Shown: piece after piece, positions 17,238 to 47,652 of the stretch
How the letters are laid out: each line of letters starts with the position of its first letter
Position numbering within the stretch: the stretch's first letter is position 1
Source: Chloroflexota bacterium
Lineage (GTDB): Bacteria; Chloroflexota; UBA11872; VXOZ01
DNA: 64,000 nt
Assembly: GCA_028874195.1 (NCBI GenBank)
Contig: JAPPLM010000028.1
Span: 1-64,000, forward strand
Direction of reading: 5' to 3'
Program-made: the position numbers and the translations under genes
Notes under the pieces: model-generated
What the model was told of the DNA's origin: nothing
The model's input: only the letters and a program-made list of their open reading frames with translations
Databases searched by the model: none

Positions 17238-17449
17238 GCGATGCAGTCCCCTCTTCTACACAGTGTGGCGATGGCATTCACACATTTGGCTATTCCTACT
17301 TTACAGGATTCAGCCTCACAGTTTGTGGGCGCGCCGGTTCGCTAGCGAATTGGCGCACAGCCGTTGGGGCATTTGGAATAAAGACTGCGGGGCCGGCACT
17401 TGCCGACCCCGCTGCCTAGTCTCTACTTAGCTACTGGTTATCTCTCTCG

Positions 17450-18841
17450 CTACCCGCCACCGGAGAAGTACGCGGCCATCTCGTCGGTGATGAGTTTCTG
17501 GAACCAATCCGCGTACTCACGGGTGTCAATTTGACCCAGTTGATATTGTTCGCGATAGCGCGGACGCGCCTCATTGCGAATCTTCTCCCACGCGCTGTAC
17601 TTCAGCATGCCCCAGCCGTGCGGCCGCGTTTGCTGTGCCTGGAGGAAGTATGCTCTGGGATCGATGCCAAGCTGGTTGCGGAATACTTCCTGCGAGACCT
17701 CAGAGTATGCCGGATCCAGGAAAGGCGAGACAACGTGTCCGGCCGTGCGCGGGAAGCGACCGGCGTTCTCAGGCGTCATGAACCAGCGGAATACCGTCCA
17801 GACGGCGTCCTGGGTATCCTCGTTGCCAATTTGCAGGCCATGGTTTGAGATGCGCGCCGAGCGGCTGGGACCGTCGCCGTCATACGGCAGCGTGCCTGCT
17901 GCCCAATTGAAGTTCGTATCCTGATTGATGAATGAAACCTGCATGCCGATCTTGCCGGTCACGAAGGTATTCATGCGCTGGCCGCCCTTGAGCTCGTTGG
18001 CTTCGTCCGGGTTGGGCTGCGCATGGTACTTGACCTCGGTGATGTCCCGCCAGAATTCGAGCCCCTGAATTATGCCAGGCGAGTTGATGAAGGCAACCTT
18101 CTTATCGTCGTCCCACGGGCCTTGGCCGAAATACGTGCCGGTGGTCTCACCTGCCGCGTTCCCGCCGCCCAAGCTGCCGCCAAAGCCGAATTGCCCATCG
18201 CCGGTCAGCTTCTGGGCATAATCGAGGAACGTGTCCATGTTCCACCATTTGGCGTTTACGTCCACCGGCGGCTCTTGCAGTCCGGCCTCGGCGAACATGT
18301 CCTTGTTGTAGGCCATGGCATCGGAAGACGTGCTGATGGGCATGCCGCCTAGCACATCATCCAAGACCCACTCGAACAGGGAAGACTCAATGTACATCTC
18401 TGCCGGCACGAGCTTGTCGGCCTTGAAGAACTCGGTCAGATCAAGAATGGCGCCGGCTTGGTACATGCGGTCCCAGGTAAGCCAACCATTGTGCACAAAG
18501 TCGAACGATACGCCGCCGGCGTGGGCCGTCATGAACTTCTCATAGACTCCGCGCCAGCCGCCGGCCTGGCCGGCAACCTCTACCTGAATGTTGGCGTGCT
18601 GCGCATTAAAATCGTTGAAGATGGCGATTTCCTTCTCTTGGCGCGCCGGGCTCTCCGGCGACGCGTAGACGATGTTCACCACTTCCGCAGTTTCGGGTTT
18701 CGCCTCTTCCGCAGCGGCCTCATCCGCTGGCGCTGCTTCACCGGTCATCTGCACTTGCCCGCAGGCGGCAAATAGACCGGCGAATCCCAAGGTGGCGCCA
18801 GCACCCATCAGGCGTCTTCTCGTGACATTGTAGGTAGACAC
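17450..18841 (-). CDS. ABC-transporter sugar-binding lipoprotein with a twin-arginine-like leader
   Basis: Family 1 extracellular solute-binding protein, 463 residues. The N-terminus reads TRRRLMGAGATLGFAGLFAACG, which combines a twin-arginine motif with a lipobox, so it may be exported folded and then lipid-anchored. A low-complexity Ala/Glu linker follows, then the binding domain beginning VNIVYASPESPARQ. I choose the GTG at 18841 because AGGAGG lies 7 bases before it; the frame is open 21 bases further. No permease or ATPase lies beside it. The flanking sulfatase suggests sulfated sugars as ligand, with permeases encoded elsewhere. Confidence 0.88.
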   Translation of the reverse strand: MSTYNVTRRRLMGAGATLGFAGLFAACGQVQMTGEAAPADEAAAEEAKPETAEVVNIVYASPESPARQEKEIAIFNDFNAQHANIQVEVAGQAGGWRGVYEKFMTAHAGGVSFDFVHNGWLTWDRMYQAGAILDLTEFFKADKLVPAEMYIESSLFEWVLDDVLGGMPISTSSDAMAYNKDMFAEAGLQEPPVDVNAKWWNMDTFLDYAQKLTGDGQFGFGGSLGGGNAAGETTGTYFGQGPWDDDKKVAFINSPGIIQGLEFWRDITEVKYHAQPNPDEANELKGGQRMNTFVTGKIGMQVSFINQDTNFNWAAGTLPYDGDGPSRSARISNHGLQIGNEDTQDAVWTVFRWFMTPENAGRFPRTAGHVVSPFLDPAYSEVSQEVFRNQLGIDPRAYFLQAQQTRPHGWGMLKYSAWEKIRNEARPRYREQYQLGQIDTREYADWFQKLITDEMAAYFSGGG

Positions 18842-18896
18842 AACACTGCCTCCTCTGTGCACTTGAACTCTGAATACTCATCAGCGAAAACCAGGA

Positions 18897-18961
18897 TGAC
18901 ATACCCTCTCTCGCTGTTGCTGTCAGTGTATATTCCTGCTCTTTTGGTTGTCAAGGGTATG
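18897..18961 (-). promoter_or_regulatory. Promoter of the solute-binding protein gene, flanked by an inverted repeat
   Basis: On the minus strand TTGACA (18949-18954) and TATACA (18927-18932) are 16 bases apart. The 7-mer CATACCC (18900-18906) and its complement GGGTATG (18955-18961) bracket the promoter, which could be a pair of repressor half-sites. Confidence 0.65.
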
Positions 18962-19060
18962 TTGGCTCGCTACGCTCAATGGCGAGAATTTTCGGCTAGG
19001 CGGGAAGGAGCGACCCTTGCACTCTTTGCCAGTCCCAATGCAGAGGGTAGTCTACGTAGT

Positions 19061-20431: not shown

Positions 20432-20562
20432 TGCATCGCCGAAGCTTAGCCTAGTATGCCAGTCTCTAGAATACCAAGGCTGCGGCACCTATTGCTCGCG
20501 CCGGCTTAGGTCTGAGGAGCGCTTTGCTTGATTCTCAGCCTGCCTCGAGTTTCCTGAACTCG

Positions 20563-21978
20563 CTAGGAGAGAGGCAGCCACTTCGACGCCCAGCGCCGCC
20601 AGGGATCTTGCGTCTCATTCATCCAGGCCATCAACCGGCGTTGCATCTCGTGACGAATGTCTTGGTACTCAGGGTCGTCGCAACGATTCTCCAATTCATG
20701 GGGGTCCCGTTCCAAGTCGTAGAGTTCATCGACGGCGTGCGGATTGTACACGTACTTGTAGTGCTGATAGCGAATCAAGCGCGATGAGAAGAGCCCGACT
20801 TCATCGCCATGAAACTCGCACCCCAATACTTCGCGCCAAGAATCGTCTTGCGGGTCGTGCCAAAGCGGCTGCAGCGCTGCACCGTCGAGATTGTCCGGCA
20901 CCGGCAGGTCGGCGGCCTGCAGTATCGTGGGCATGATGTCGATGAGGCTGGTGAACTTCGCGGTGGAGGCGCCGGCCGGAATCTGCTGTGGCCAGCGCAT
21001 GATCAAGGGAATATGGTAGACCTCCTGGTAGAGCAGGGGTCCTTTGTTGAATTGGCCGTGACCGCCGATAAAATCGCCGTGATCAGTATTGTATATGACC
21101 AGCGTTTCATCTCGAATGCCCAGGTCGTCGAGCGTTTGCAGTAGCTTGGCAAACAAATCATCGAGGTAGCTAATATAGCCAAAGTACTTGGCAACGGCCG
21201 GTTGCCAGTCCTCCCACGTGAAGTCCTGCACGCCGCGGTGGAACTTGTGTCGCAGATGGACCTGGGGTTTGTTTTCGAAGGTGTCATAGAAATTCGGCCA
21301 CGGTGGAATCTCGTCTGGGTCATAGAGTGAAGCCCACGGCTCCGGTACCACGTAGGGATGGTGCGGCCCGTTATAGTCGACGCGCAGGTAGAAGGGTTGT
21401 TGGTCTTGGTACTCCCGCAGTAGGCGCATGCCCTCTTCCGTGAAGTAGTACATCTGGTTGCCTTCTACCGGAAGCTGCTCGGTGCCGGAAATGATGAATT
21501 CATCGTTAGGGTAGTTGGCATAGAGCGCGTCCGGTGGGGTCGGTGGTTTCACGGGCAGGCCAAGTTGCCGCCGATAGTCGGCAATGCTCTCCGCGCCCAC
21601 GTCATGGAAGCCGCGCGACTTGGGTCCATGCGCGCGGCCGATGTGCCACTTGCCAACGTGTCCGAGCCGGTAACCGGCTTCGTTCAGGAGTTCACTGTAG
21701 GTGATTTCCTCGACAGGCAGCTCCTCTCGGATGGTTTCTCCCTGACTGCAGTTATTGTAGATGCCGTTATTATGGGGATAGCGTCCGGTTACCATGGATG
21801 CCCGCGCCGGCGAACAGATGCCGGCCGGCGTATAGGCTTCGCTATAGTTGATGCCTTCCTGCGCAAGGCGATCCAACGTTGGGGTCCGGCAGATGGGACT
21901 TCCATTCACGCCCACCATGTCAAACCGCATTTGGTCAACCATAATGTGCAGGATGTTGGGTCGGCGCGCGTCTGTCAT
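20563..21978 (-). CDS. Type I sulfatase (choline/arylsulfatase-like)
   Basis: Second sulfatase of the window, 471 residues. HIMVDQMRFDMVG gives the N-terminal metal aspartates, ICSPARASMVTGR is the C-x-P-x-R formylglycine site, and VGKWHIGRAHG and NTDHGDFIGGHG complete the active site. The YNGPHHPYVVPEP segment is usual in sulfatases acting on small sulfate esters and glycans. No signal peptide is visible, so it is likely cytoplasmic. GAGGTG precedes the ATG. The two Gfo/Idh genes lie upstream on the same strand and may act on the desulfated sugar. Confidence 0.93.
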   Translation of the reverse strand: MTDARRPNILHIMVDQMRFDMVGVNGSPICRTPTLDRLAQEGINYSEAYTPAGICSPARASMVTGRYPHNNGIYNNCSQGETIREELPVEEITYSELLNEAGYRLGHVGKWHIGRAHGPKSRGFHDVGAESIADYRRQLGLPVKPPTPPDALYANYPNDEFIISGTEQLPVEGNQMYYFTEEGMRLLREYQDQQPFYLRVDYNGPHHPYVVPEPWASLYDPDEIPPWPNFYDTFENKPQVHLRHKFHRGVQDFTWEDWQPAVAKYFGYISYLDDLFAKLLQTLDDLGIRDETLVIYNTDHGDFIGGHGQFNKGPLLYQEVYHIPLIMRWPQQIPAGASTAKFTSLIDIMPTILQAADLPVPDNLDGAALQPLWHDPQDDSWREVLGCEFHGDEVGLFSSRLIRYQHYKYVYNPHAVDELYDLERDPHELENRCDDPEYQDIRHEMQRRLMAWMNETQDPWRRWASKWLPLS

Positions 21979-22192
21979 GATTCACACCTCAATTCGATTT
22001 CCAATGACGTATCAAGTGCGTCCCCAAATGACCTTCAGGGAGCGACAATCGAGAATTAGGCGAAACAACGGTGGAAGCAGAATACTCCTAGAGCACTATT
22101 GGCCGAAATCGAACGCAGGTTGCAAACCTGCGCTACCTGACGTTAACACTTGAAATGAACCTCACCTCTGCTACCGCCATTCACCGCTAGCC

Positions 22193-23281
22193 TTAGCGGA
22201 ACTGCGGCACGTCGAGCCAGACGCCGCCCTGCATGGCTGCCTCGTGGGCGACGATGCCGGGCGCGGAGAATTCTACGGCACGTATGGCATCAATCGGGGC
22301 CTTCGTATTGTTGTCAATGGCGGCAATGAAGTCCTGCACCATAAAGTACTCAGAGGTGCCGTGGCCGCCGTGCAGGGCTTCCGGCGGCGCGTTGGCATCT
22401 ACCAAGGGGCAGTCAATCTCCTCTGCTCCGGACTGCTTGGACATGGTCTCAACATTGAAGTACCGTCCCTTGGATGCCCCTTCCTCAATGTGGCGTCCGC
22501 TCTCAATGAAGCCCTTGGTGCCGTACAGCGAGTAGTACACCGAGTGCGGGTGCCGATGCGCTACTTGGCTGCGTAGGATTTTAACGACGTTACCTCTTGC
22601 GGTTTGAAAGAGCCCTACCTCCATGTCCAGGTGGCCCAGCCCTTCTTCTTCGGGGTGCATGTTTCTGCCGGCAGACGCGCCGGTAGCCTTTACAATGCGA
22701 TCGTCCATGAGCATCAGCACCGGGCCCAGCGTATGCGCACAATACCAGATTGGCGCCCGGGGCAGCCGCCACTTGGGCGTGCCGGTTTCAGGATCACGCA
22801 GCAGGTCGGCAATCTCGTGGACATATTCACTTTCCGCATAAAACAGCGTGCCCAGCGAGCCCTGACTGATGAGCTTGCGCCACTGGCGTATGTAATGAAA
22901 GTAGCAATAGTTCTCTGCCATCATGTATACGTTGCCGGTGCGCTCTTGCGCGTCTATGACGGCAGCGCACTCGTCTAAGGTGTAGGCGACGGTCTGCTCG
23001 CAAAGCACATGCTTGCCGCTTTCCAGAGCCGCGATGGACTGCGAAGCGTGAAACTCGATGGGTGTCGCAATGACTACGATATCCAGCGGGGCATTTACAA
23101 AGTCGTCAAATGCCGTGAAAAGCCTGTTGTCGCTCAGATTATAGTCCGGGGCCATGTCGGCGAGGGTGCCTTCCTTCAGGTCGCAGAGGGCAGCTACTTC
23201 CACGCGGGGATGCGTGGACAACGCGCGCACTAGTCCTCCGCCGCGACGCAGACCAACAAAGCCAACCTGCAATTTGCCCAT
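22193..23281 (-). CDS. Gfo/Idh/MocA-family oxidoreductase, paralogue A (EKP lysine lost)
   Basis: 362 residues from ATG 23281, which has AAAGGA 6 bases upstream; the frame also offers an ATG 18 bases earlier. The Rossmann start VGFVGLRRGGGLVRAL and the C-terminal beta-sheet domain are intact. The usual catalytic motif EKP reads EQT (LCEQTVAYT), so the general-acid lysine is replaced by glutamine. The family active-site helix is also unusual (WYCAHTLGPVLMLMDD). It is about 80% identical by eye to the neighbour at 23748-24851, and their upstream regions match as well, so this is a recent local duplication. Reduced or altered chemistry is likely. A binding or sensing role is possible. Confidence 0.87.
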   Translation of the reverse strand: MGKLQVGFVGLRRGGGLVRALSTHPRVEVAALCDLKEGTLADMAPDYNLSDNRLFTAFDDFVNAPLDIVVIATPIEFHASQSIAALESGKHVLCEQTVAYTLDECAAVIDAQERTGNVYMMAENYCYFHYIRQWRKLISQGSLGTLFYAESEYVHEIADLLRDPETGTPKWRLPRAPIWYCAHTLGPVLMLMDDRIVKATGASAGRNMHPEEEGLGHLDMEVGLFQTARGNVVKILRSQVAHRHPHSVYYSLYGTKGFIESGRHIEEGASKGRYFNVETMSKQSGAEEIDCPLVDANAPPEALHGGHGTSEYFMVQDFIAAIDNNTKAPIDAIRAVEFSAPGIVAHEAAMQGGVWLDVPQFR

Positions 23282-23747
23282 ATGCATTCCTTTCGGCATT
23301 TACCCTAAATTAAACTCCATATTGGAATTGCAAGACTTGTGGATGGTTACAGTTTCTCATACCTCCACCAACCGCTTCCCTTTTCCGCTGCGCAGTTGAA
23401 CGCTGGTGCCGGTTCTGGCAAACACATCCAAAGCCCGGCCGGTCGCGAAATTCAGTTTTAATCGGTAGAGGAGCGTCGCACTATCGTAACGCCCCTCTTC
23501 TCTCGCGGGAGCGGGTTACGGACCTGCGCAACGTTGTCTTGGCGGGCGTGCAGGTGGAGTTTGAAAGACTGCTCTGTTTGCGACACCGTAGTTTGGGACT
23601 ATTGTAAACGCTCCCCTAACTCTCTCACAAAGGAGCGAGGGACAAGCCCCCGCGCTACTCTGATGCCAGACGCTGCGAACGCCCAATGCAATCCAAACCG
23701 TTAGTTAGTCTTTCGGCTCGCGGCAGGATAGATTCATATGTATTTCG
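23282..23747. other. Duplicated upstream region plus repeat fragments
   Basis: The first 160 bases (23282-23445) match the region upstream of paralogue B (24852-25020): both have TGGAATTGCAAGAC, an AACCGCTTCCCTTT block and a GCGCAGTTGAACGCTGG-like block. The remainder holds decayed CCCTCTC-type hairpins and the unit 23639-23655. I see no gene. Confidence 0.7.
23639..23655. repeat. 17-bp copy of the 6683-6699 repeat, opposite orientation
   Basis: GGGACAAGCCCCCGCGC is the exact reverse complement of 6683-6699. In both places it sits next to a CTCTC/GAGGG hairpin. Confidence 0.7.
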
Positions 23748-34971: not shown

Positions 34972-35970
34972 GTGGCTATTACAGAGGAACGTCTCGGCCA
35001 GGAGATCTGGGCGGACCTGCAGAGCAACGTGCAGGAGCGCATCCACGGCGCGCTCTTGATGCTGAGCGAGCGCGAAAAGCAAATTGCGCTCATTGATTTG
35101 GAGCGAATGGTTGCCACGCCAAATCAGTATAGTGTAACGGAGCGTATTTCCGTAGGAAAGGCACTTTCATTTCTTGGCGACCCGCGCATTCGCACCCTCG
35201 AACCCATGCTGGCTCGTGTTCCGCGTGGCGCGTTTACCATGGGTACTGTCAGCGACGCGGTAGATCAGATACTGGAGGAGGTTGACACCGGCGCCGACGA
35301 CGCAGAAGCGCTGCATCAAACGGCACGAGGCGCCGTATTAATGGAAACGCCGGAGCGGACGATTGAACTCCCCGCATTCTTAATTGGCAGGTTTCTTGTC
35401 ACGAATATCGAATTCCACCCCTTTGTGCTCTCCGGCGGCGCTCCTCCCCGCGACTACTGGGATGGCACAACCATCGATCCCTGGATCCAGAACCAGCCGG
35501 TACAGGGTGTGACGTGGGAAGAAGCGGTCGGATATTGCGATTGGCTGGCAAATGAAACGGGCCGTCCCTTCCGGTTGCCTACTGAGGAGGAATGGGAGAA
35601 AGCGGCGCGCGGCACGGACGGAAGGAAGTTTCCCTGGGGAGATACTTTTGGTTACACGTGCGCCAATGTGTGGGAGGGCGGCGTAGCGGCCGCCACACCT
35701 GTGGGGGTCTACCCAGATGGGGTCAGCCCGTACTGGGTACTGGACATGGCTGGGAACGTCGCGGAGTGGACGGCTTCCTTTATAGGTACGTATCCCGGTT
35801 CCGCAGGTAGTGAGTTGATCTCGTCGCAGGTAGAAGAGTACGGCCGTTACCGGGTGGTGCGCGGCGGCTGCTGGCGGGACCCAAAATACAAGGCAAGGTG
35901 CGCGAGTAGGGGGAATCCCGTGGGGCACCACACGCAAGCGATTGGGTTCCGCGTTGCGCTAGACGCCTAA
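34972..35970 (+). CDS. FGE/SUMF1-fold (EgtB/PvdO-like) protein lacking the FGE cysteines
   Basis: 332 residues from a GTG start. The first 100 residues are helical. The rest is a formylglycine-generating-enzyme fold: PVQGVTWEEAVGYCDWLANE, RLPTEEEWEKAARG, DMAGNVAEWT and RVVRGGCW. In true sulfatase-activating FGE the end of the fold has two catalytic cysteines in a GGSFLCxxxYCxRYR block. Here the block reads GGCW, then RCASRG, so that pair is missing. It is therefore unlikely to activate the two sulfatases of this window despite the shared annotation. A structural, lectin-like or nonheme-iron function is more likely. Confidence 0.83.
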   Translation: MAITEERLGQEIWADLQSNVQERIHGALLMLSEREKQIALIDLERMVATPNQYSVTERISVGKALSFLGDPRIRTLEPMLARVPRGAFTMGTVSDAVDQILEEVDTGADDAEALHQTARGAVLMETPERTIELPAFLIGRFLVTNIEFHPFVLSGGAPPRDYWDGTTIDPWIQNQPVQGVTWEEAVGYCDWLANETGRPFRLPTEEEWEKAARGTDGRKFPWGDTFGYTCANVWEGGVAAATPVGVYPDGVSPYWVLDMAGNVAEWTASFIGTYPGSAGSELISSQVEEYGRYRVVRGGCWRDPKYKARCASRGNPVGHHTQAIGFRVALDA

Positions 35971-36175: not shown

Positions 36176-39100
36176 ATGAATATTCTCGAGAGAACATTTA
36201 CTAGCCTTCAGGCAGCAGGCGGAAAGTTCGGCGTGCTGCGCAACATGCGTGTGTGGTCTATCTGGATCAACATCGGTCTGGCTGTGATGCTGCTCACAAT
36301 TTCCATTCCCACCGCCACGTCTGCTGCCGTGTATGCGCAGCAAAACACCCAGAACAAAGATGCGGAAGAAGAGGATGCGGAAGAGGAGAAGAAGGGAACC
36401 TTTATTACGCACGCCACCGGCGTGGTTGAAGTAAAGCTCGAAGACAATTATGCCGAAACACTCCAGACGTATGCCAAGAATGGTTACAAGTGGGTTGAGA
36501 ACGTCGAGGTCCCAATCGACCACACGAATATCATTCGGTTCCGTGGTCACGAACCGGAATTTCTCAGTGAACTCGGCGGCAGGACCGGCGAAATCATCAA
36601 CTGGCAGGAAGAGACCGAGTGGATGGAGTGGAAGGTCAATGTACCCAAGACCGGTCTCTACAATATCGAACTTGAATACTATCCCTTGCCCGGTAAGCGC
36701 GCCTCCATTCAGCGGCGTATCCAAATAGACGGAGAGTTTCCGTTCCAGGAAGCGCGGCGCGTGGTCTTTGTCCGCTTCTGGCAAGACAAGGGTCTGCCGA
36801 CTACCGATAACCAAGGCAACGATAGACGCCCCGGCCAGCGCGAGAATCCACGGTGGGAGACAGTGCGCATCGTCGATGGCGATGGTATGTATCCCTGGCC
36901 TTTTGACTTCTACCTGACCGAAGGCGAGCACGTGATCCGCCTCATCACGGTGCGCGAACCGATCGCGATTCGCAGCTTGCGCCTGGTTTCGCCGTCACGG
37001 CCGCCTACGTATGCGGAAGTTTACGCAATGTATCAGGAGAAGGGCTATAAGAATGCGAGCGAGACCCTCATCCGTCACCAGGCTGAGCTTCCCGTGGAGC
37101 GAACGGAAGCCACTATCCGCATGGAGTACACTTCCGGCCCGTTGGTTGATCCGTATTCTGCCGGCTACGTGCGGTTGAATGCGTACGGCTCTTATCGCTG
37201 GCGCCGCGCCTTGCAAGCAGCCACTTGGGAATTCGAAGTGCCGGAGGACGGTCTCTATAAGATTGCTTGGCGGCGCTGGCAAGCGTACGCAAGCTTCTTG
37301 CCTTCCGCGCGGCGGATTCTCATTGACGGTAAAGTCCCGTTCCAGGAGCTCAATAACTTCCTATTTACGCCTGACAAAGATAGAGATTGGCGTATTGTGT
37401 CCTTTGGTGATAAATCCGGTGAGGGTGAGCCTTACCTCTTCTATCTGACGAAGGGCAAACATACCCTCACGATGGAGGTCACCGTAGGCCCCTCCGCGGA
37501 GACTATTCGCGCCATCAACAAGGTGGTGACCGACCTGTCGATCATGGTGCGCGAGATTACGATGATTACGGGCGTCAATCCTGACCCGTACATGGAGTTC
37601 GATCTCACGTCGCGAATTCCGACATTGGTGCCGCGCTTGGTCGCCAACTATGAGTTGCTCGAAGAGCAAGTAGACCATATGACCATGGTCAACAACGGCG
37701 TGAAGCCGAACGTGGCCAACGTGCTGCAAGAAGTGGCGTTTCAGTTGCAAGACATGGCCCGTGACCCGGAGAGCATGTCCCGCCGCTTGAGCGACCTGAG
37801 CGCTAGTCAAGGCCGCCTCTCACAGTGGCTGCTCTACCTGCGCGAGCACCCGCTCTGGCTCGACTACTTGCTGATCAGCAATCCCGAGATGGAGCTTGGG
37901 GTCGGCAAGGCGAGCATCTTCTTGAAGGCGTGGGCCGGGTTCATGAACTTCCTGAGTTCGTTCGTCCGCAATTACTACGGCGTCGGCTCGATTTACGGCG
38001 ACGATGACAATACCATCACCGTTTGGGTGGCCCGCGGCCGTGAGTGGGGCATGATCATGAAGGACATGACAGAGGATGATTTCACCCCCGCCAGCGGTAT
38101 AGCCGTGAACCTGCAGGTGTTCCCACCGGCGCAGCTTAGCGCGGGTTCGGTGAACGTGTTGCTCCTGTCAGTGGCGAGTGGCGTGACCCCGGATGTCGCA
38201 ACCGGTGTGTTGCCCGACGTGCCGGTGGAGTTTGCTATTCGTAACGGCGTAGCCAATATGAATAAGTTCGTGGATTATCAGGAGGTGACGACGCGATTCC
38301 GACCCGGGGCGCTGCTGCCCTTCCGTTGGGAGGGCGGAGACTACGCAATACCGGAAACGCAGGACTTCTTGATGATGTTCTACCGCACAGACATCTTCAC
38401 TGAATTGGGCCTGACTCCGCCTGATACCTGGCAAGACTTGTACAACATGATCTGGCTGCTTCAGCAGCGCGGAATGGACTTCTTCTTCCCGCCGGTAGGC
38501 GTGTCCGCGGGTGGCGGCATTTACGGCTTGGCTGAGTCTCTTGTGCCGGGGTTCCTGCCTTTCCTCTACCAGAACGGCGGAGACTTCTATACGGATAGAG
38601 GACTGAGCGCCCTTGACTCGCCGGAAGCCTTGGCCGGATTCCGTGAGTGGACGGAGCTCTATACCAATTACAAGATCACGCAGCAAGCCGACTTCTACAA
38701 CCGTATGCGCACGGGAGAGATGCCGATTGGTGTATCGGGCTTCTTTACGTATATTCTCTTATCCGTTGCGGCCCCGGAGCTTGAGGGCCGCTGGGAAATG
38801 CTGCCGCTGCCCGGTAAACGCCGTCCGGACGGACAGGTAGACCGTACCTCAGGCGGCTATGGTCAAGCCGTTGTGATCATGGATAATTCAGATAAACAAG
38901 AAATGGCTTGGGAGTGGTCGAAATGGTGGACGTCTACGCGGGCCCAGGCGCGCTTCGGTGAAGAGCTCGAGGCCTTGATCGGCACGGAGGCGCGCTGGAA
39001 TACGGCCAACGTCAAAGCCCTAAACCAGCTCCCCTTCCCGCAAAAGGATATCGAAGCTATCCAGGAGCAGTGGCGCTGGTTCAAGGAGCAGCCGGTTACG

Positions 39101-39283
39101 TTGGGTGGCTACTTCACGCCGCGTCACATCATCAATGCCTGGAATCGCGTAGTGCTGCAAGGGTGGAACGCGCGTGAAGCCCTGGAAGAAGCAGTGAAGC
39201 AAATTGACCGCGAACTCATCCGCAAGCGTGAGGAGTTCGGATTGCCGGTTGATCTCACGAAGACGAAAGGAGGTCTGGAATAA
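36176..39283 (+). CDS. Giant solute-binding protein fused to two carbohydrate-binding-like modules
   Basis: 1035 residues, more than twice the usual length of a family 1 solute-binding protein. Order seen: signal/membrane segment about 24-50, an acidic linker (DAEEEDAEEEKK), module A about 75-275, module B about 290-425, a helical segment about 430-600, then the binding domain from TITVWVARGREW to the end. The two modules share the pattern V.VP..GLY.I......RR...IDG..PFQE, typical of beta-sandwich sugar-binding modules. The protein is probably held outside the membrane and both captures and presents a glycan. GAAGGTGG precedes ATG 36176. The stop overlaps the next start by one base. Confidence 0.87.
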   Translation: MNILERTFTSLQAAGGKFGVLRNMRVWSIWINIGLAVMLLTISIPTATSAAVYAQQNTQNKDAEEEDAEEEKKGTFITHATGVVEVKLEDNYAETLQTYAKNGYKWVENVEVPIDHTNIIRFRGHEPEFLSELGGRTGEIINWQEETEWMEWKVNVPKTGLYNIELEYYPLPGKRASIQRRIQIDGEFPFQEARRVVFVRFWQDKGLPTTDNQGNDRRPGQRENPRWETVRIVDGDGMYPWPFDFYLTEGEHVIRLITVREPIAIRSLRLVSPSRPPTYAEVYAMYQEKGYKNASETLIRHQAELPVERTEATIRMEYTSGPLVDPYSAGYVRLNAYGSYRWRRALQAATWEFEVPEDGLYKIAWRRWQAYASFLPSARRILIDGKVPFQELNNFLFTPDKDRDWRIVSFGDKSGEGEPYLFYLTKGKHTLTMEVTVGPSAETIRAINKVVTDLSIMVREITMITGVNPDPYMEFDLTSRIPTLVPRLVANYELLEEQVDHMTMVNNGVKPNVANVLQEVAFQLQDMARDPESMSRRLSDLSASQGRLSQWLLYLREHPLWLDYLLISNPEMELGVGKASIFLKAWAGFMNFLSSFVRNYYGVGSIYGDDDNTITVWVARGREWGMIMKDMTEDDFTPASGIAVNLQVFPPAQLSAGSVNVLLLSVASGVTPDVATGVLPDVPVEFAIRNGVANMNKFVDYQEVTTRFRPGALLPFRWEGGDYAIPETQDFLMMFYRTDIFTELGLTPPDTWQDLYNMIWLLQQRGMDFFFPPVGVSAGGGIYGLAESLVPGFLPFLYQNGGDFYTDRGLSALDSPEALAGFREWTELYTNYKITQQADFYNRMRTGEMPIGVSGFFTYILLSVAAPELEGRWEMLPLPGKRRPDGQVDRTSGGYGQAVVIMDNSDKQEMAWEWSKWWTSTRAQARFGEELEALIGTEARWNTANVKALNQLPFPQKDIEAIQEQWRWFKEQPVTLGGYFTPRHIINAWNRVVLQGWNAREALEEAVKQIDRELIRKREEFGLPVDLTKTKGGLE

Positions 39284-40248
39284 TGGCCGAAGCCAAGAGT
39301 AGCGGCCCGGGCGCGGAGGTCACGACCCAACCGCGAGCGGTGGCAGAGCCGAAGACCGGCCTGCAACGGCTCCTCGCGCAGTATGGTGTGTCGTATGCTT
39401 TCCTGCTGCCCTACATGATCTTCTTCTTCGCCTTCTTGATCATCCCCGTAGGGGTGGCCATCTGGCTGAGCTTTACCTACTTCAATATGCTGGAGCCGCC
39501 CCGCGTGATTGGCTGGTCCAATTATCGCTTGTTGTTCCTCGAGGATGACATCTTCGTCTTGTCCATCCGGAACACGCTCTTCTTTGCTTTCATCACAGGA
39601 CCGGTCAGCCTCACCGCATCCTTCCTCCTTGCCTGGTTCATTAACCAAATCCGGGTGCGTACCATTTACGCTTTGGCGTTCTACGCACCTTCGCTGACCA
39701 GCGCCATTGCTATGGCGGTTGTCTGGCGCATTGTCTTTTCCGGCGACCGCTACGGCTACATGAACTACTTCTTGATGCGCATGGGCTTCATCCAGGAACC
39801 GTTCCTGTGGCTCATCGACCAGCGGACTATGTTGCCGGTGGTCATGTTCGTCATGTTATGGATGAGTATGGGCAACAACTTCCTCGTGTTCCTTGCCGGC
39901 CTGCAGACCGTCAATACGGAACTCTATGAGGCCGGGAAGGTAGACGGAATCGCGCATCCCCTCCAGGAGATGTGGTACATTACCCTGCCATCCATGAAGC
40001 CACAGATGCTCTTTGGCGTTATCAACGCGGTGGTGCTGATGTTTTCTGCGGGCTTTGAGATTTCGCTCTCGCTGGCGGGTCTTCCCAGTCCGCTGTACGC
40101 GGCGCATATGATCCTGTCGCACCTGTATGACTACGCATTTATCCGGTTTGAAATGGGTTATGCGGCTGCAATTGCCGTTATACTCTTCATCATTACCTTT
40201 GGTATAGGGCAAGGCGCCTTGCGTCTGCTCTCCACCAAGGATGAATAG
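39283..40248 (+). CDS. Sugar ABC permease, MalF type (pair 1)
   Basis: 321-residue inner-membrane permease with six predicted spans. After a 30-residue cytoplasmic tail the first span is YAFLLPYMIFFFAFLIIPVG. The loop that docks with the ATPase is EAGKVDGIAHPLQEMWYITL, a clear EAA motif of the CUT1 sugar family. AAAGGAGG lies upstream and the ATG overlaps the stop of the solute-binding protein gene (TAATG), so the two are translationally coupled. It should pair with the next permease. No ATPase gene exists in the operon. Confidence 0.92.
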   Translation: MAEAKSSGPGAEVTTQPRAVAEPKTGLQRLLAQYGVSYAFLLPYMIFFFAFLIIPVGVAIWLSFTYFNMLEPPRVIGWSNYRLLFLEDDIFVLSIRNTLFFAFITGPVSLTASFLLAWFINQIRVRTIYALAFYAPSLTSAIAMAVVWRIVFSGDRYGYMNYFLMRMGFIQEPFLWLIDQRTMLPVVMFVMLWMSMGNNFLVFLAGLQTVNTELYEAGKVDGIAHPLQEMWYITLPSMKPQMLFGVINAVVLMFSAGFEISLSLAGLPSPLYAAHMILSHLYDYAFIRFEMGYAAAIAVILFIITFGIGQGALRLLSTKDE

Positions 40249-40269
40249 CCAAGGAAGGGGAAACGGTAG

Positions 40270-41130
40270 ATGATTATTCGAGTTGGCAAATTCAAGATTA
40301 CAAGCGGTGAGTTTACGACCATCGCGGCCTTGACCATTCTTGCCGCGTTCATGTCATTGCCGCTGATCTTCGTCGTGTCGCATGCTCTCAAACCAATTGA
40401 CGAGCTCTTCCTCTTTCCGCCGCGCTTCATCGTGCGGAATCCTACGTTGCGCAATTTCCAGGACCTCTTGATTGCGACGTATTCTCTCAACGTGCCGTTC
40501 ATTCGGTACATTTTCAATAGTGTCTTCGTGGCCTTTTGCACGGTGCTTGGCGGCGTGTTGCTGGCGAGCTTGGCTGCCTACCCCTTGGCAAAGCATAATT
40601 TTCCCGGGCGCCATGCCATGTTCATCGTTGTCATCGCGGCGCTCATGTTTACCCCGCAAGTGACGGCGATCCCGCGGTATCTGGTGGTCTACCAGCTCGG
40701 TATCATCGATACCTACTTCGCGCTGGTGCTCCCCAATTTGGCCATCCCGTATGCGCTCTTCTTGATGAAGCAGTTCATGGAGCAAATACCGGCGGCACTC
40801 ATTGAATCGGCTAAGATAGACGGGGCGACAGAGTGGACGGTGTTCTGGCGTGTCGTCATGCCTTTGGTGACGCCGGCATGGGCCACGCTGGTAATCATCA
40901 TCTTCGTTGGTACGTGGAACGACATCTGGGCGCCTTTGGTATTTACCCGGACGGAATCGATGCGGACTTTGCCAATCGCACTCCAGACGTTGATCAGCCA
41001 AGGTTCCGTGGCCCGGCAAGGAGCGTATGCGGCCGCGACGTTTATCATGATTACTCCCCCAGTGGTACTGTTTACGTTGGTACAGCGGCGCGTGATTGCA
41101 ACGATGGCGCACTCAGGCATTAAGGCCTGA
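40270..41130 (+). CDS. Sugar ABC permease, MalG type (pair 1)
   Basis: 286-residue permease with six predicted spans, partner of the preceding MalF-type protein. The EAA loop is ESAKIDGATEWTVFWRVVMP, followed by the usual proline and the span ATLVIIIFVGTWNDIW. AAGGAAGGGG lies before the ATG. A 49-base gap separates it from the NHL/Yip1 gene. It belongs to the CUT1 oligosaccharide family and needs an external, probably shared, ATPase of the MsmK type. Confidence 0.92.
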   Translation: MIIRVGKFKITSGEFTTIAALTILAAFMSLPLIFVVSHALKPIDELFLFPPRFIVRNPTLRNFQDLLIATYSLNVPFIRYIFNSVFVAFCTVLGGVLLASLAAYPLAKHNFPGRHAMFIVVIAALMFTPQVTAIPRYLVVYQLGIIDTYFALVLPNLAIPYALFLMKQFMEQIPAALIESAKIDGATEWTVFWRVVMPLVTPAWATLVIIIFVGTWNDIWAPLVFTRTESMRTLPIALQTLISQGSVARQGAYAAATFIMITPPVVLFTLVQRRVIATMAHSGIKA

Positions 41131-41179
41131 CGGCATAGCGGTGCGGGATTGAACGAGCAGTGGTTAAGGGATTGAAAAA

Positions 41180-43288
41180 ATGCTAGGAAACAAGGGATCA
41201 AGACTTAAGGCAGTGCTGGCGTTGCTGGCGGCGCTTTGGCTCATCTTGACGTCCGCCGGTACGGCGTTTGCTTTGGAGCTTGATCCAAAGCTGTCTTATA
41301 CGATCGATCCCCGCAAGCAGCGCGTGCCTTCACCGCTCCCGTATATATTTGAGAAAGAGATCAACGGCATACACTTGCCGACCGGCGCCTTCAAGGAGCC
41401 TTCAGACTTGTTCCTCGACCACGAGGAGAACCTGTGGTTGGCTGACACCGGGAACGATCGGATACTCAAGTTCTCTCAGGAAGGCGAGTATCTTATGGAA
41501 GTCAGCAACTTGAGCAAGCCCGAGGGCATCTATGTCGATCCGGATGGAAACATATTTGTTGCGGATACTGGCAATAACCGCATTCTCCGACTGGATCCCG
41601 AGGGAAATTTCGTTGACGAGTTCTTCAAGCCCGAAACAACCCTTATCCCTATCGACCATACGTTTGCGCCTAGCAAGCTGGTGGTGGATCGCAGCGGACG
41701 CATCTACACGTTGGAGGCTGGGAGCAACCTCGGCATTATCGTGCTGGACGGCGAGGGTAACTTCCGCGGTTTCTTTGGGGCTACGCGTCTGGACTTTAGC
41801 CTGCGCCGGCTGATTGTGAGCATGTTTGCGACGCAGGAACAGCGGCGCAAGATATTCCTGCCCCAGCCTACGCCGCACTCAAATCTGTACCTATCCGATG
41901 ATGGCTTCCTTTACACCGTAGTGGCGACTGCGGTCAAAGACCAGCTTCAGAAGCTGAGTCCGGTCGGGGTGAACGTCTATCCCCACTCAACTTCCGTCGC
42001 GATTTACATGCGATTCTTCAAGGAAGACTCGCTGAAGTTCTATGGGGAGCGTGAAGGAGCCGGTCGGCGGACCCAATTCCCACGCTTCTCCGATGTCAAT
42101 GTCAATGACGCGGGCATTATTACGGTCGTGGATGCCAACTCGGCAAAAGTCTATCAGTACGACCAGGATGGTGAGCCGCTTTTGGCATTTGGCGGCAGAG
42201 GAGTGCAGCAGGGCCAACTGGGGTACCCGACGAGTGTGGTGACGGACGAAGCAGGATCCTTGTATATCCTGGATGCGATCCGCAACAACATTCAGGTGTA
42301 CCGGCCCACGCTCTTTGCCAGACTGGTGCATTCGGCGAGCAAGTTCTACTGGGACGGCAGGTATGATGAGGCTGCTAACCTTTGGCAGCAAGTTCTCAAG
42401 CTCGATGCGAACATGTACCTGGCGCACAGTGCGCTCGGCAAGGCGCTCTACAGACAGGAGCGCTATCAGGACGCGATGGTCGAGTACTTCAGGGGCTACG
42501 ATAAGACCGAGTACGCGAAGGCCTACTCTGAGGCGCGGTATCTGTGGATGCGCGCAAACTTCGGACTTTTCATGCTCTACGTGCTCTTGGGAATCGGCGC
42601 AATCATAGTGATTCCCCGAGGCACGCGCCGCATTTTCGAATTGGGCTTCCAGCGGGGCATCCTCAAGCAGCAGAGTACGTGGTACAAGGTATATCGCCAG
42701 GCGGTTGGCGTCTTGCGTGATCCAATGGAAACCTTCTGGGCATTGCGGGAAGATTCCACGTGGTGGACGGTGTGGACGATGCTTGGTCTCGCTATCATTG
42801 TGCGCATGCTTACGCTCAATACGGTGAGCTTCCACTACTCGTCTATAGATCCCGAAGATATCAACTTTGTGCTTGAAGTCTCGCGGATTCTTGTGCCGTT
42901 CCTGGTCTGGGTGATAGCGAATTACGGCGTGAGCGCAATTTTCTACGGTGAGGGTTCACCGAAAGTGGTGGCAGCAACGACCGCTTACTGCTTGCAGCCG
43001 TATATCATTATCGCCTTGCCGTTGGCCTTGGTTTCGAACGTGCTTACGGGGGATGAGAGTGCGTTGTATGGCTTTGCAAACACTGCCATGTACTGGTGGA
43101 TGGGCGTGCTTCTCTACCTGCAGGTGAAGGTTGTGCACGACTTCGAGTTCAAGCGCGCCGCGGGTGTGAGCTTCCTCAACATATTGGGAATGGTTGCGAT
43201 ATTCGGCATTTCCGCCCTTAGCTATTTCATGTCGTCGCGGGTGATCCGCTTCCTCTGGGAGGTTGTTTATGAAGTTGTCACTCGCTAG
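41180..43288 (+). CDS. Secreted NHL beta-propeller - TPR - Yip1 membrane protein
   Basis: 702 residues with an unusual architecture. A signal segment (about 8-31) is followed by at least five NHL-type blades, for example PEGIYVDPDGNIFVADTGNN, spanning about residues 60-375. A TPR-like helical pair (LVHSASKFYWDGRYDEAANL) spans about 385-445. Then comes a membrane span near 464-485 and a Yip1-like multi-span domain from about 500 to the end. The propeller should face outward and the Yip1 part stay in the membrane. It lies inside the transporter operon. It probably organises the complex or binds glycan, but no function is established. The DUF5696 gene overlaps its last 20 bases. Confidence 0.87.
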   Translation: MLGNKGSRLKAVLALLAALWLILTSAGTAFALELDPKLSYTIDPRKQRVPSPLPYIFEKEINGIHLPTGAFKEPSDLFLDHEENLWLADTGNDRILKFSQEGEYLMEVSNLSKPEGIYVDPDGNIFVADTGNNRILRLDPEGNFVDEFFKPETTLIPIDHTFAPSKLVVDRSGRIYTLEAGSNLGIIVLDGEGNFRGFFGATRLDFSLRRLIVSMFATQEQRRKIFLPQPTPHSNLYLSDDGFLYTVVATAVKDQLQKLSPVGVNVYPHSTSVAIYMRFFKEDSLKFYGEREGAGRRTQFPRFSDVNVNDAGIITVVDANSAKVYQYDQDGEPLLAFGGRGVQQGQLGYPTSVVTDEAGSLYILDAIRNNIQVYRPTLFARLVHSASKFYWDGRYDEAANLWQQVLKLDANMYLAHSALGKALYRQERYQDAMVEYFRGYDKTEYAKAYSEARYLWMRANFGLFMLYVLLGIGAIIVIPRGTRRIFELGFQRGILKQQSTWYKVYRQAVGVLRDPMETFWALREDSTWWTVWTMLGLAIIVRMLTLNTVSFHYSSIDPEDINFVLEVSRILVPFLVWVIANYGVSAIFYGEGSPKVVAATTAYCLQPYIIIALPLALVSNVLTGDESALYGFANTAMYWWMGVLLYLQVKVVHDFEFKRAAGVSFLNILGMVAIFGISALSYFMSSRVIRFLWEVVYEVVTR

Positions 43289-45719
43289 AGGGTGGCGTTT
43301 CGCACGGTTCTTTGTGCCGCTGATCCTATTTTTGACTGTACTGCCGATTGCGCCGGTTATGGCTGCGCCAGCCTACGACCCGGCGAAGGATTTGGGACCG
43401 GAATTTGAGCAAGTCAGCCAGGTCGAGCACCTTTCGCTCTTTCTGAATAAAGCGAACTCACAACTGGCCGTATTCGATGATCGTGAGAACGGACGTCTTT
43501 GGCGGAGTTCTCCAATTCTCGAAAACCCCGAAGCTGTCTCGGATTCCATTAAGGCGCGCCTGAATTCGGTGGTTATTGTCGAGTACACCGACAAAGTGCG
43601 CACCCAGACCCGTGTAGCCGATATCATTTCAGACCAGCCGAATATGACCTTCACTCCCATTGACGGCGGGATTCGGGTGGATTATCTGTTCGAAGAGTTG
43701 AATATCGGCTTTACCATCGACTTTTGGCTGGAAGACGACCGTCTGGTCGTTGCTGTTGCTGAGGATAGCGTGCGGGAGACTGAAGAGCGTCTCTTGGTGA
43801 CCTTGGATATCTTGCCGTTTCTCGGCGCCGCAACCAACGAGGAGAAGGGTTATCTCTTCGTGCCGGACGGACCGGGAGCAATCGTGCATTTCCGGCCTGA
43901 GCAACCTGAATATCGGCATAACTTCCTGGCAGAGGTCTACGGTCCTGCGCTCTTCTCGTTTGAACCCGAGCAGCAGCAGGGGCCCATACCGGTGCCGGTC
44001 TTTGGTTTAGTGCGCGGGAATTCGGCGTTTACGGGCATAGTCACTAAGGGTGACATGGACGTGAACATCAGCGCGGCGCTAAGCTACACCGCATTAGGCT
44101 ACAACCGTATTTCCGGCCAGTTCATCTTCCGGCGTAAGGCGCCCTTCCCCCTGCGGCGTGCGTCATTTGTGACGAGGTTTGAGCAGGAGCGTGTTGAGGG
44201 AGACCGCGAACTCAAGTATGCGTTCTTGCGCGGCTATGACGCTACGTACGTCGGCATGGCAAAGACGTATCGTGAGTACCTCATGAATGAGCGCGGTTTA
44301 CAAAGGCTGGAAGAGGCGAATCCATTCTTGCATCTCCGCATCTTCATGGCTATGCAGCGCCAAGCGTTTCCGCGCGATCAGTTCATCACCATGACGACGT
44401 TTGATGAAGCCCTGGATATGCTCAAAACACTCAAGGATGAGCGGGGGCTGGACAACTTGCGCGTTACGCTGGTGGGCTGGAGTCAGGACGGGTATGACTG
44501 GTCGTTGCCCAAGCGCTTGCCGCCGGAAGGCAAGATCGGCGGCGACGAGGGACTGCGCGCGGTTTCAAATTACGCCAATGCCAATGAAATCCCCCTTTAC
44601 CTCGAGGACAACTATCTGTTTGGCTTCAGGAATATCGACTCTTTCTTCCGCTTCAATCCGCTGACGGACGTAATTCGCGGGGCAAACCGGTTGCCAATTA
44701 CGACCAACTACGTGGGTTTCAAGCGCAAGGAGGACGAACCGCACACCGAGGTACAGCTCCTGCGACCGGAGATTGCCCGTGATCGCTATGCGGCTAACGA
44801 TATTGCAAAGATGAAAGACTATGGGGTTTCCGGCGTAGAGTTTCGTTTCTTCGGCAAGGTGGCGCTCAACCACTACCCAATTCTCTTTTCCGGAAGGTCG
44901 GGATTCACGACTGGACTCAGGATGCTTGGGTTGATTGCGATCATAGGGATTGGTCTCTATATTGTCTTGATCGGGACACGGCGAGCCGGTGATGCGATTC
45001 TCGGCCAACTTATAGGTGGTCCGTTGTGGCGGCCGATTGCCACTGCCGCGCTCCTGGTTGTGCTGGCGGGAGGCTTATTCATTGAAATCCGCAACTTCCA
45101 GCAACCGGTCGATACTGAGCAAGGTGGGGTCAAACTAAGCCGCCAAGAGTTTGTAGACGTGTGGAAAGACATCGTTGAGATTAGCAAGGAAGAAACGGGT
45201 ACGGCCGTCATCCAGGGCGCGAATGCCTACATGCTTGATACCGCCGACTTCTTTACACGCGTTCCTCTGGACCGCTATAACTATGTGTTCAGCGAGGAGA
45301 CGGTCCCCTTCTTCCCATTGGCAGTGCACGGGTTGGTGCGCTACACGGGTGATGAGAGTAATCTGCGCAGCGATCGCGATGAGTTCTTGCGTGCCATCGA
45401 GTATGGCGCCTTGCCCACGTTCGAGTTGACGGCTAGCCCCAGCGTTCTCCTTACCCGAACCCAGTACAATCGTCTCTACTCTTCACGGTTCGCTGATTGG
45501 GAGCCGCAGATTGTCGATGAATACGAACTCTTCATCAGACAGTTGGGCTATACGGTAAATCAGCTCATGGAAGACCATAGACAGATCACAGAGGGGGTCT
45601 ATGAGACCGTGTATGAGGACGGAACGCGGGTTATTGTGAACTACAATACGCGTCGCTTTACCGACGGCGACACCACGGTCGAGGGCCAGAACTATCTCAT
45701 TATTCCGCCGCGGAGGTAA
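43269..45719 (+). CDS. DUF5696 glycosidase-like protein with a membrane hairpin inserted in its barrel
   Basis: 816 residues from ATG 43269, with GGGAGG 6 bases upstream; a TTG at 43263 is the alternative. A signal peptide ends near PVMAAPAYD. Residues about 30-330 look like a beta-rich sandwich domain. A TIM-barrel-like DUF5696 domain follows, with VTLVGWSQDGYDW, PLYLEDNYLFGF and GVEFRFFGKVALNHYP. After HYP (about 537) comes an 85-residue insert with two hydrophobic spans (about 552-572 and 590-607). The barrel resumes at LSRQEFVDVW with GANAYMLDTADFF and LAVHGLVRYTG. Both barrel halves would thus lie outside, pinned to the membrane. It is probably a glycan-cleaving or glycan-binding enzyme; the substrate is unknown. 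Confidence 0.82.
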   Translation: MKLSLARGWRFARFFVPLILFLTVLPIAPVMAAPAYDPAKDLGPEFEQVSQVEHLSLFLNKANSQLAVFDDRENGRLWRSSPILENPEAVSDSIKARLNSVVIVEYTDKVRTQTRVADIISDQPNMTFTPIDGGIRVDYLFEELNIGFTIDFWLEDDRLVVAVAEDSVRETEERLLVTLDILPFLGAATNEEKGYLFVPDGPGAIVHFRPEQPEYRHNFLAEVYGPALFSFEPEQQQGPIPVPVFGLVRGNSAFTGIVTKGDMDVNISAALSYTALGYNRISGQFIFRRKAPFPLRRASFVTRFEQERVEGDRELKYAFLRGYDATYVGMAKTYREYLMNERGLQRLEEANPFLHLRIFMAMQRQAFPRDQFITMTTFDEALDMLKTLKDERGLDNLRVTLVGWSQDGYDWSLPKRLPPEGKIGGDEGLRAVSNYANANEIPLYLEDNYLFGFRNIDSFFRFNPLTDVIRGANRLPITTNYVGFKRKEDEPHTEVQLLRPEIARDRYAANDIAKMKDYGVSGVEFRFFGKVALNHYPILFSGRSGFTTGLRMLGLIAIIGIGLYIVLIGTRRAGDAILGQLIGGPLWRPIATAALLVVLAGGLFIEIRNFQQPVDTEQGGVKLSRQEFVDVWKDIVEISKEETGTAVIQGANAYMLDTADFFTRVPLDRYNYVFSEETVPFFPLAVHGLVRYTGDESNLRSDRDEFLRAIEYGALPTFELTASPSVLLTRTQYNRLYSSRFADWEPQIVDEYELFIRQLGYTVNQLMEDHRQITEGVYETVYEDGTRVIVNYNTRRFTDGDTTVEGQNYLIIPPRR

Positions 45720-45725
45720 CTCGCC

Positions 45726-46700
45726 ATGCAATTCGAAGATAACTTTTTCTGGGTGGCCGTGCTAACAGGGCTAGCCTTCGTGGTCCCGGCGTGCATCTTG
45801 TCGATCCGCGTAATACTGTCGGCGGTGGGAGTGCGCCTGACCTACAAGTTTCAACGTGCTATGGATGGGTACTTCTACATCAGCACGTGGGTCGTGGGAT
45901 TTCTGATCTTCCTCGCCTGGCCGTTGTTTCAGTCGCTTTACGTTAGCTTCCACAACGTCAAGATTACGAGTTCCGAACTTAAACTAACATTCATAGGCTG
46001 GGAAAACTACGCGGAACCTTTCCTGGAAGACATTCACTTCCTGCCCCTGTTTACCAAGACGGTTGCAAACCTCCTTTCGGACCTGCCTATCATCCTGGTC
46101 TTTTCGCTCTTCGTTTCAATCCTGGTGGTACAAGAGATGCCGGGACGCGGTGTGTTCCGCATGCTCCTCTTCATGCCGGTAGTGATCGGTTCGGCGATTG
46201 TTATTCGCCGTCTCTTTGGTGAGGGTGTGAGCACGGAAGCCATCGGAGTAAGCGTGCAGACGCTGAGTGAGGTTGTGTTCACGTACTTGCAAGGCACGAT
46301 AGCGGATTGGGTGCTTGACCTGGTGAACCGCGTTACCTTGGTGCTCTGGCGTACCGGCGTGCAGATCCTCATCTTTGTGGCGGGACTGCATAGTGTTCCA
46401 ATCACGATGCGTGAGGCGGCAAAGACCGACGGCGCCTCCGGCTGGCAGATCTTCTGGCGGATTACACTGCCGATGCTTTCACCGGTGATTTTGGTCAACG
46501 TTGTGTATACGATTGTGGACTCGTTCACGGATCCATTCAATGAGGTGCTCACATACATCCAGACTGTGGGTTTGACCCGAGACTTTCGGCTTGGCTATGC
46601 GGCGGCTTTGGGCTGGATGTACTTCGCCTCGATTTTCCTCTTCATGGCGCTCGCCTTGCTGATTTCAAGCCGCTTTGTATTCTACGCTGGTGAACGGTAG
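45726..46700 (+). CDS. Sugar ABC permease, MalF type (pair 2)
   Basis: 324-residue permease with an extra N-terminal span (FFWVAVLTGLAFVVPACIL) before the usual set. The EAA loop is EAAKTDGASGWQIFWRITLP. It starts 6 bases after the DUF5696 stop behind GGAGG. Its sequence differs clearly from the pair 1 MalF protein, so this is not a recent copy. Together with the next gene it forms a second permease pair in the same operon. Confidence 0.92.
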   Translation: MQFEDNFFWVAVLTGLAFVVPACILSIRVILSAVGVRLTYKFQRAMDGYFYISTWVVGFLIFLAWPLFQSLYVSFHNVKITSSELKLTFIGWENYAEPFLEDIHFLPLFTKTVANLLSDLPIILVFSLFVSILVVQEMPGRGVFRMLLFMPVVIGSAIVIRRLFGEGVSTEAIGVSVQTLSEVVFTYLQGTIADWVLDLVNRVTLVLWRTGVQILIFVAGLHSVPITMREAAKTDGASGWQIFWRITLPMLSPVILVNVVYTIVDSFTDPFNEVLTYIQTVGLTRDFRLGYAAALGWMYFASIFLFMALALLISSRFVFYAGER

Positions 46701-46713
46701 GGAGAACCCGGGC

Positions 46714-47652
46714 ATGGCTGATTCAGTATTCGTCATTCGGCAGCGCACAGGTGTACTGGGAGCACTGACGTCGCGCAAGTGGTGGGAAATGCTCTTCCTG
46801 CGCATTGCCACCTATATCATCTTGATCAATGTCTGCTTCGTCTTTCTCTTCCCGGTTATTTACATGTTCTCAACGTCGCTCAAGACAGTTGCGGACCTGG
46901 CTGACCTTACCGTTCTGTGGATACCGCGCACGTTCTTTTGGCGGAATTATGAGCTTGCCATAAGCGGCATGCTCTACTGGCAGGCAGCGCGCAATAGTAT
47001 CATCATCTCGTTTGGTTCCGGTGTTTTACAGACCGTAGCCTGCTCATTTGTGGCCTATGGCTTCGCCCGCATCCCGTTTCCGGGACGCGATGTTCTCTTC
47101 TTGCTGGTTCTTTTCACTTTCCTGGTGCCGCCGCAGACCATTATCGTGCCTCTCTTCATTCTCTACCGAAACCTTGGGTTCATGGACACGTACTTCCCCT
47201 TCCTGATCCCAGCGCTCTTCGGACATGGCCTCAGAGGCGCGCTCTTTATCCTGGTGTTCCGACAGTTCTTTAGAAACCTGCCGTATGAGTTGGAGGATGC
47301 GGCTCGTATTGACGGAGCCGGACCCTTCAGTGTCTACTGGCGGATCATGCTGCCCTTGGCAACACCGGCCATTATCGTTGTCTTCCTCTTTTCTCTCGTT
47401 TGGCACTGGAATGACTTCTTCGAGCCGACGATCTATCTCTTCGACCAGAATAACTTCACCCTGCCGTTACGTCTCTCCATTCTGAGCGCGGCGTTGTTGC
47501 AGATGCTGGCCGGCCAAGGCGCGGGGGATGAGTTTAACGAGGCCGTAATTATGGCCGCGTCATTCCTTGTGATCATGCCGCCACTAATCATCTATCTCTT
47601 TACCCAGCGCTACTTTGTGGAGAGTGTGGATCGGACAGGCCTTGTTGAATAG
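46714..47652 (+). CDS. Sugar ABC permease, MalG type (pair 2)
   Basis: 312 residues from ATG 46714, with AGGGAG upstream; the frame is open 39 bases earlier, inside the preceding gene. Six spans are predicted. The EAA loop is EDAARIDGAGPFSVYWRIML, followed by FLFSLVWHWNDFF. It is the last gene of the seven-gene operon. The second pair may use the same giant binding protein, or a different product of the same glycan. Confidence 0.92.
   Translation: MADSVFVIRQRTGVLGALTSRKWWEMLFLRIATYIILINVCFVFLFPVIYMFSTSLKTVADLADLTVLWIPRTFFWRNYELAISGMLYWQAARNSIIISFGSGVLQTVACSFVAYGFARIPFPGRDVLFLLVLFTFLVPPQTIIVPLFILYRNLGFMDTYFPFLIPALFGHGLRGALFILVFRQFFRNLPYELEDAARIDGAGPFSVYWRIMLPLATPAIIVVFLFSLVWHWNDFFEPTIYLFDQNNFTLPLRLSILSAALLQMLAGQGAGDEFNEAVIMAASFLVIMPPLIIYLFTQRYFVESVDRTGLVE

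Follow-up and report, generated by a model that had tools for sequence, protein, structure and literature searches.

A conserved seven-gene block with two CUT1 permease pairs as a candidate shared import hub for orphan solute-binding proteins in Chloroflexota

Organization of the seven-gene block

The window, a stretch of 64,000 nucleotides from a 3.5-Mb Chloroflexota metagenome-assembled genome (G000; 98.3% complete, 3.6% contamination), contains seven co-directional plus-strand genes, A to G, at 36176-47652 (Table 1). Gene models are open reading frames and domain calls are Pfam matches. The preliminary description of this block is confirmed in its layout: all seven ORFs are present, A and B overlap by 1 base, the next two junctions are gaps of 21 (B/C) and 49 bases (C/D), D and E overlap by 20 bases, and gaps of 6 (E/F) and 13 bases (F/G) complete the series. 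The starts of E (at the 20-base overlap) and of G (after the gap of 13) are both ATG codons. Promoter and terminator scans returned nothing beyond the level of shuffled sequence.

Protein A is a giant solute-binding protein (SBP) with a signal peptide that lacks a lipobox. Its N-terminal part is β-sandwich-like and its SBP domain spans approximately residues 635-947; matches to the CBM_35 and golvesin-like Pfam families are weak and fall below cut-off. B, C, F and G form two MalF/MalG pairs, score 357-404 bits with MalF/MalG HMMs and all retain the EAA coupling loop, and F carries an additional hydrophobic segment at its N-terminus. The block thus contains two of the parts of a CUT1 importer, MalF/MalG pairs with EAA loops and an SBP_bac_1-type protein (A). 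The third part, an ATPase, is missing from the block, as had been noted, and the two OB_MalK proteins of G000 are encoded on other contigs. This supports the description of the locus as coding for two CUT1 permease pairs, B/C and F/G, that have diverged from each other and may form either two transporters or one four-permease assembly, with an ATPase gene elsewhere.

Table 1. Coordinates of the block, its parts and the candidate partner genes. Positions are those of the window unless a contig is given.
Feature	Location	Strand	Basis or remark
A, giant solute-binding protein	36176..39283	+	Pfam SBP_bac_1
B, MalF-type permease, pair 1	39283..40248	+	BPD_transp_1; EAA loop
C, MalG-type permease, pair 1	40270..41130	+	BPD_transp_1; EAA loop
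D, NHL propeller, TPR and Yip1 membrane domain	41180..43288	+	Pfam
E, DUF5696, GH129-superfamily barrel	43269..45719	+	Pfam DUF5696, 511.6 bits
Two hydrophobic helices inserted in E	44916..45065	+	genus-specific among copies compared
F, MalF-type permease, pair 2	45726..46700	+	BPD_transp_1; EAA loop
G, MalG-type permease, pair 2	46714..47652	+	BPD_transp_1; EAA loop
Orphan SBP, proposed hub user	17450..18862	-	between sulfatase genes
MalK-type ATPase gene	G000:C60:90484-91599		intact motifs, OB_MalK
MalK-type ATPase gene, diverged	C26:30341-31558		intact motifs, OB_MalK

Conservation and surroundings of the block

Conservation was assessed by tblastn with the window proteins on loci retrieved from 61 related genomes and from plasmid and chromid records of Paenibacillus and Butyrivibrio. 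DUF5696 genes occur in 16 of the 61 genomes, 15 of them above the family cut-off. Wherever the block is complete, the order A-B-C-D-E-F-G is unchanged: five genomes of the genus have it, as do families f2 and f5 of the class and one genome (G053) from a different family elsewhere in the phylum. Some copies are interrupted by contig ends. Identity to the f2 and f5 proteins is highest for the permeases (B and C, ~57-61%; F, 45-53%; G, 64-66%), followed by A (45-49%), D (29-43%) and E (31-39%), and the values for G053 are mostly lower. D is split into two neighbouring genes in Butyrivibrio as well as in some of the other families, one for the propeller/TPR part and one for the Yip1 part.

A further copy of the block stands on a replicon of Paenibacillus cellulosilyticus, where the gene immediately 5' of A encodes a UgpC-type ATPase. 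Another is carried by a plasmid of Butyrivibrio fibrisolvens and has a GH43 gene upstream. Each record has two lone SBP genes 3' of the block. In Paenibacillus these two lie interspersed with four genes for LLM flavin-dependent oxidoreductases (L048:21288-30511). Co-conservation, the check proposed with the preliminary description, is strong, with seven genes in one order in several Chloroflexota families and two Bacillota records; recurrence across families and phyla shows that the block is not a chance arrangement.

The two permease pairs are only ~20-30% identical to each other (B versus F, C versus G). Across phyla each permease is closer to its own counterpart, at ~38-49% for B and C and ~31-42% for F and G, indicating that the pairs were already distinct before these copies of the block diverged.

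In other Chloroflexota families the neighbours of the block are mostly housekeeping genes and include no CAZymes. A formylglycine-generating-enzyme (FGE)-like gene upstream (34972-35970 in the window) and a D-Ala-D-Ala carboxypeptidase gene downstream adjoin the block in the genus only. Further upstream on the minus strand, 15753-23299 holds in a row two sulfatases, an orphan SBP, a DUF815 AAA protein and a Gfo/Idh/MocA dehydrogenase; together with the FGE-like gene, this row is a possible sulfated-glycan locus.

The DUF5696 protein is related to GH129 enzymes

Protein E is homologous to the GH129 catalytic domain. A PDB profile search matches it to 5OPQ (3,6-anhydro-D-galactosidase; E-value 4.8e-33) and 5WZN (NagBb; 1.6e-23). 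The catalytic residues of NagBb we take to be D435, the nucleophile and the Asp of a YLDVFT motif, and E478, the acid/base. Unlike these enzymes, the E proteins of the block have no conserved acidic residue at the nucleophile position or in the acid/base region in HMM and MAFFT alignments. The two helices inserted in E lie in the loop that follows the strand on which GH129 enzymes bear the nucleophile. Judged by alignment alone, E has the domain but no conserved catalytic Asp and Glu, and is probably a binding or scaffold part rather than an enzyme; the trimming activity earlier proposed for the complex is thus unlikely. AlphaFold models of E and D, built from four near-identical sequences, reached mean pLDDT values of 31 and 46, too low for a fold search.

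A paralogue encoded at L041:8539-10743, adjoining an SBP and Gfo/Idh/MocA dehydrogenases, matches both the DUF5696 and the GH129 Pfam models. It retains a YLDT motif close to where GH129 enzymes have the nucleophile and is possibly an active relative.

Binding proteins outnumber CUT1 permeases

The G000 genome has 82 SBP_bac_1 matches and 18 BPD_transp_1 matches. When the whole genome is queried with MalG, strong matches are obtained for C and G only; F matches weakly, and one further match reaches 22 bits. Local scans covered the DNA around the SBPs (81 of the 82 SBP ORFs were placed) and several further permeases, and individual inspection extended to about 16 of the 18 PF00528 places. With the MalF/MalG HMMs, no gene around the SBPs or among most of the other permeases approaches the scores of the window permeases, and two further permeases that adjoin SBPs reach 35-50 bits. 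By these genome-wide and local searches, no CUT1 permease other than B, C, F and G is found in the assembled genome.

Position gives the same picture. A same-strand CUT1-like permease lies within 4 kb of none of the 82 SBPs in G000 and none of 29 in G012, which also bears the block. In the block-lacking control G021 such a permease lies within 4 kb of 20 of 22 SBPs, showing that the proximity method works.

The orphan SBPs have features of exported lipoproteins. A twin-arginine motif is present in 73 of 80 G000 SBPs (L114-L166), and in 66 of the 80 this Tat motif is followed by a lipobox, a combination seen in 6 of 359 control ORFs. This difference suggests that the proteins are probably membrane-anchored, Tat-exported lipoprotein receptors. 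The RR and Cys columns are likewise present in the SBPs of G012 and G021. Comparison of alignment columns between orphan and permease-linked SBPs revealed no clear docking signature common to the orphans beyond a single proline. The nearest genes encode sulfatases, Gfo/Idh/MocA dehydrogenases, aminotransferases and AXE1-type esterases; the 125 neighbours scanned include three permeases and two histidine kinases.

The excess of SBPs accompanies the block

First-look counts of SBP and permease candidates were made in all 61 genomes, and searches of eight genomes, a scale at which all or nearly all candidates could be scored, showed that confirmed match numbers track the candidate numbers. The SBP:permease ratio has a median of 1.48 in genomes with the block versus 0.30 in those without it (p=2e-6). 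Kinship among the genomes weakens such p-values, and the fairer test is that at family level (four families versus sixteen), which gives p=8e-4. Six genomes of the genus share the same ratio, and one of them has a contig of 1.29 Mb. In G026, 232 SBP_bac_1 candidates are accompanied by 36 permease candidates.

The association has exceptions in both directions. G022 has 243 SBP_bac_1 candidates and 48 permease candidates (ratio 5.1); only a weak DUF5696 paralogue, and not the block, was detected in this 89%-complete MAG. The block was also not detected in G005 (ratio 4.9; 69% complete, same genus) or G041 (ratio 1.0; 66% complete). Genus g5 of family f3 and family f17 lack the block yet show a moderate excess of SBPs (0.6-0.86). 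Conversely, genera g2 and g4 of f2 have the block and only a modest excess (0.55-0.78), and may hold ordinary CUT1 systems in addition.

Stand-alone MalK-type ATPases

Only two proteins in the whole G000 genome bear an OB_MalK domain. Both are encoded by stand-alone genes and have intact motifs (Table 1). One gene lies near a GH4 gene; the other, the diverged copy, overlaps a gene for a DUF624 (YesL-like) membrane protein at G000:C26:29626-31558 (L044). The case for this C26 ATPase as the specific partner of the block is weakened by the occurrence of its relatives throughout the class, even in genomes that lack the block.

A proposed shared import hub for orphan binding proteins

We propose that the block encodes a shared ABC import hub for many orphan lipoprotein SBPs, and assign this reading, in which docking and transport are inferred, a probability of about 0.7. 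It is the simplest account of three features of G000: some 80 lipoprotein receptors without permeases of their own, a single locus that could supply a CUT1 translocator, and MalK-type ATPases that stand alone. The SBP side of the pattern recurs in 29 of the SBPs of G012. In the proposed mechanism, lipid-anchored SBPs encoded elsewhere, beside diverse catabolic genes, would bind a range of ligands, of which sugars, glycan fragments and derivatives of these are the most likely. The loaded SBPs would then dock on the permeases encoded by the block, and B/C and F/G would be powered by the C60 ATPase and possibly by that on C26. A, D and E would be constant extracytoplasmic or membrane accessories, and likely act as a platform for docking or assembly.

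The preliminary description instead saw a surface complex dedicated to the binding, trimming and import of one glycan. In such a system A would capture the glycan, E would trim it and the permeases would import it, and the orphan SBPs would be unrelated to the block. Carbohydrate-type folds in A and E, the GH43 gene upstream in Butyrivibrio, and the sulfatases and FGE-like gene near the block in the genus speak for such a system. We nevertheless consider it unlikely and single-glycan import unsupported, because some 80 SBPs would then have no CUT1 permease to work with, none having been found beyond the four of the block, and because E lacks the conserved GH129 acids and the block has housekeeping genes, not CAZymes, as neighbours in other Chloroflexota families.

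Still less probable is that the orphan SBPs serve as surface sensors, scavengers or adhesins and that the block forms a conserved machine of the cell envelope that is independent of them. The housekeeping surroundings of the block in other families, the lack of a common docking signature and the two histidine kinases among the SBP neighbours are compatible with this idea. However, it is catabolic enzymes rather than kinases that adjoin the SBPs, the SBPs are ordinary SBP_bac_1 lipoproteins, their excess accompanies the block across families, and the permeases retain their EAA loops. An assembly artefact, in which permease genes are missing from draft MAGs as repeated genes can collapse and SBPs merely appear orphan, is already nearly refuted, as the loss would have to occur mid-contig beside SBPs, in 82 of 82 and 29 of 29 cases but in few of the 22 in G021, which is likewise a draft, and with the same ratio in six genomes of the genus, including that with the 1.29-Mb contig.

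Relationship to known import systems

Sharing of components is known among ABC importers. The multitask ATPase MsmX is common to several CUT1 (MalFGK2-type) importers (PMC7658222, PMC5730181). Like these systems, the block combines an SBP and MalF/MalG permeases with EAA loops with a candidate ATPase that is encoded apart and could be shared. It differs in that a single locus holds two permease pairs, diverged from each other, together with three constant accessories, and in that the permeases themselves, not the ATPase alone, are apparently common to dozens of SBPs.

Importers that recruit orphan SBPs are closer to the proposed hub. The DppBCDF translocator serves DppA1-A5 (PMC4206461), the Cbc system likewise recruits several orphan SBPs, and importers of this kind are the subject of ‘Homes for the orphans’ (Thomas 2010, as cited in PMC8938411). 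In these cases, as proposed for the block, surplus permease-less SBPs converge on one translocator. The examples that we found involve few SBPs and one substrate class, whereas the numbers here are 82 matches (G000), 104 matches (G012) and 232 candidates (G026). We know of no orphan-SBP importer with an accessory set comparable to A, D and E. Group II ECF transporters, in which one energised module serves many interchangeable substrate-capturing subunits (PMC7755397), offer a functional analogy only; their S-components are membrane proteins, the folds are different, and we do not claim homology.

Literature searches on DUF5696, on YIP1/NHL proteins plus transporters and on shared permeases found no account of such a cluster. 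ATPases shared between importers, and translocators used by a small number of SBPs, are known, but sharing on this scale, the arrangement in two permease pairs and the fixed accessory set appear to be undescribed.

Implications

The odds slightly favour a broader scenario in which a universal docking hub, serving ~80 to 230 different Tat-exported lipoprotein receptors, has taken the place of dedicated sugar importers in this lineage, such that access to a new nutrient would require a receptor gene alone. If the hub proposal is correct, the substrate of an ABC importer could no longer be read from its own operon in such lineages, and dozens of Chloroflexota orphan SBPs would gain a partner. How one permease accepts many receptors would become a testable question. 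The proposal would, moreover, point to a function for DUF5696 and for bacterial NHL/Yip1 proteins, both of which are part of the Bacillota copies of the block as well.
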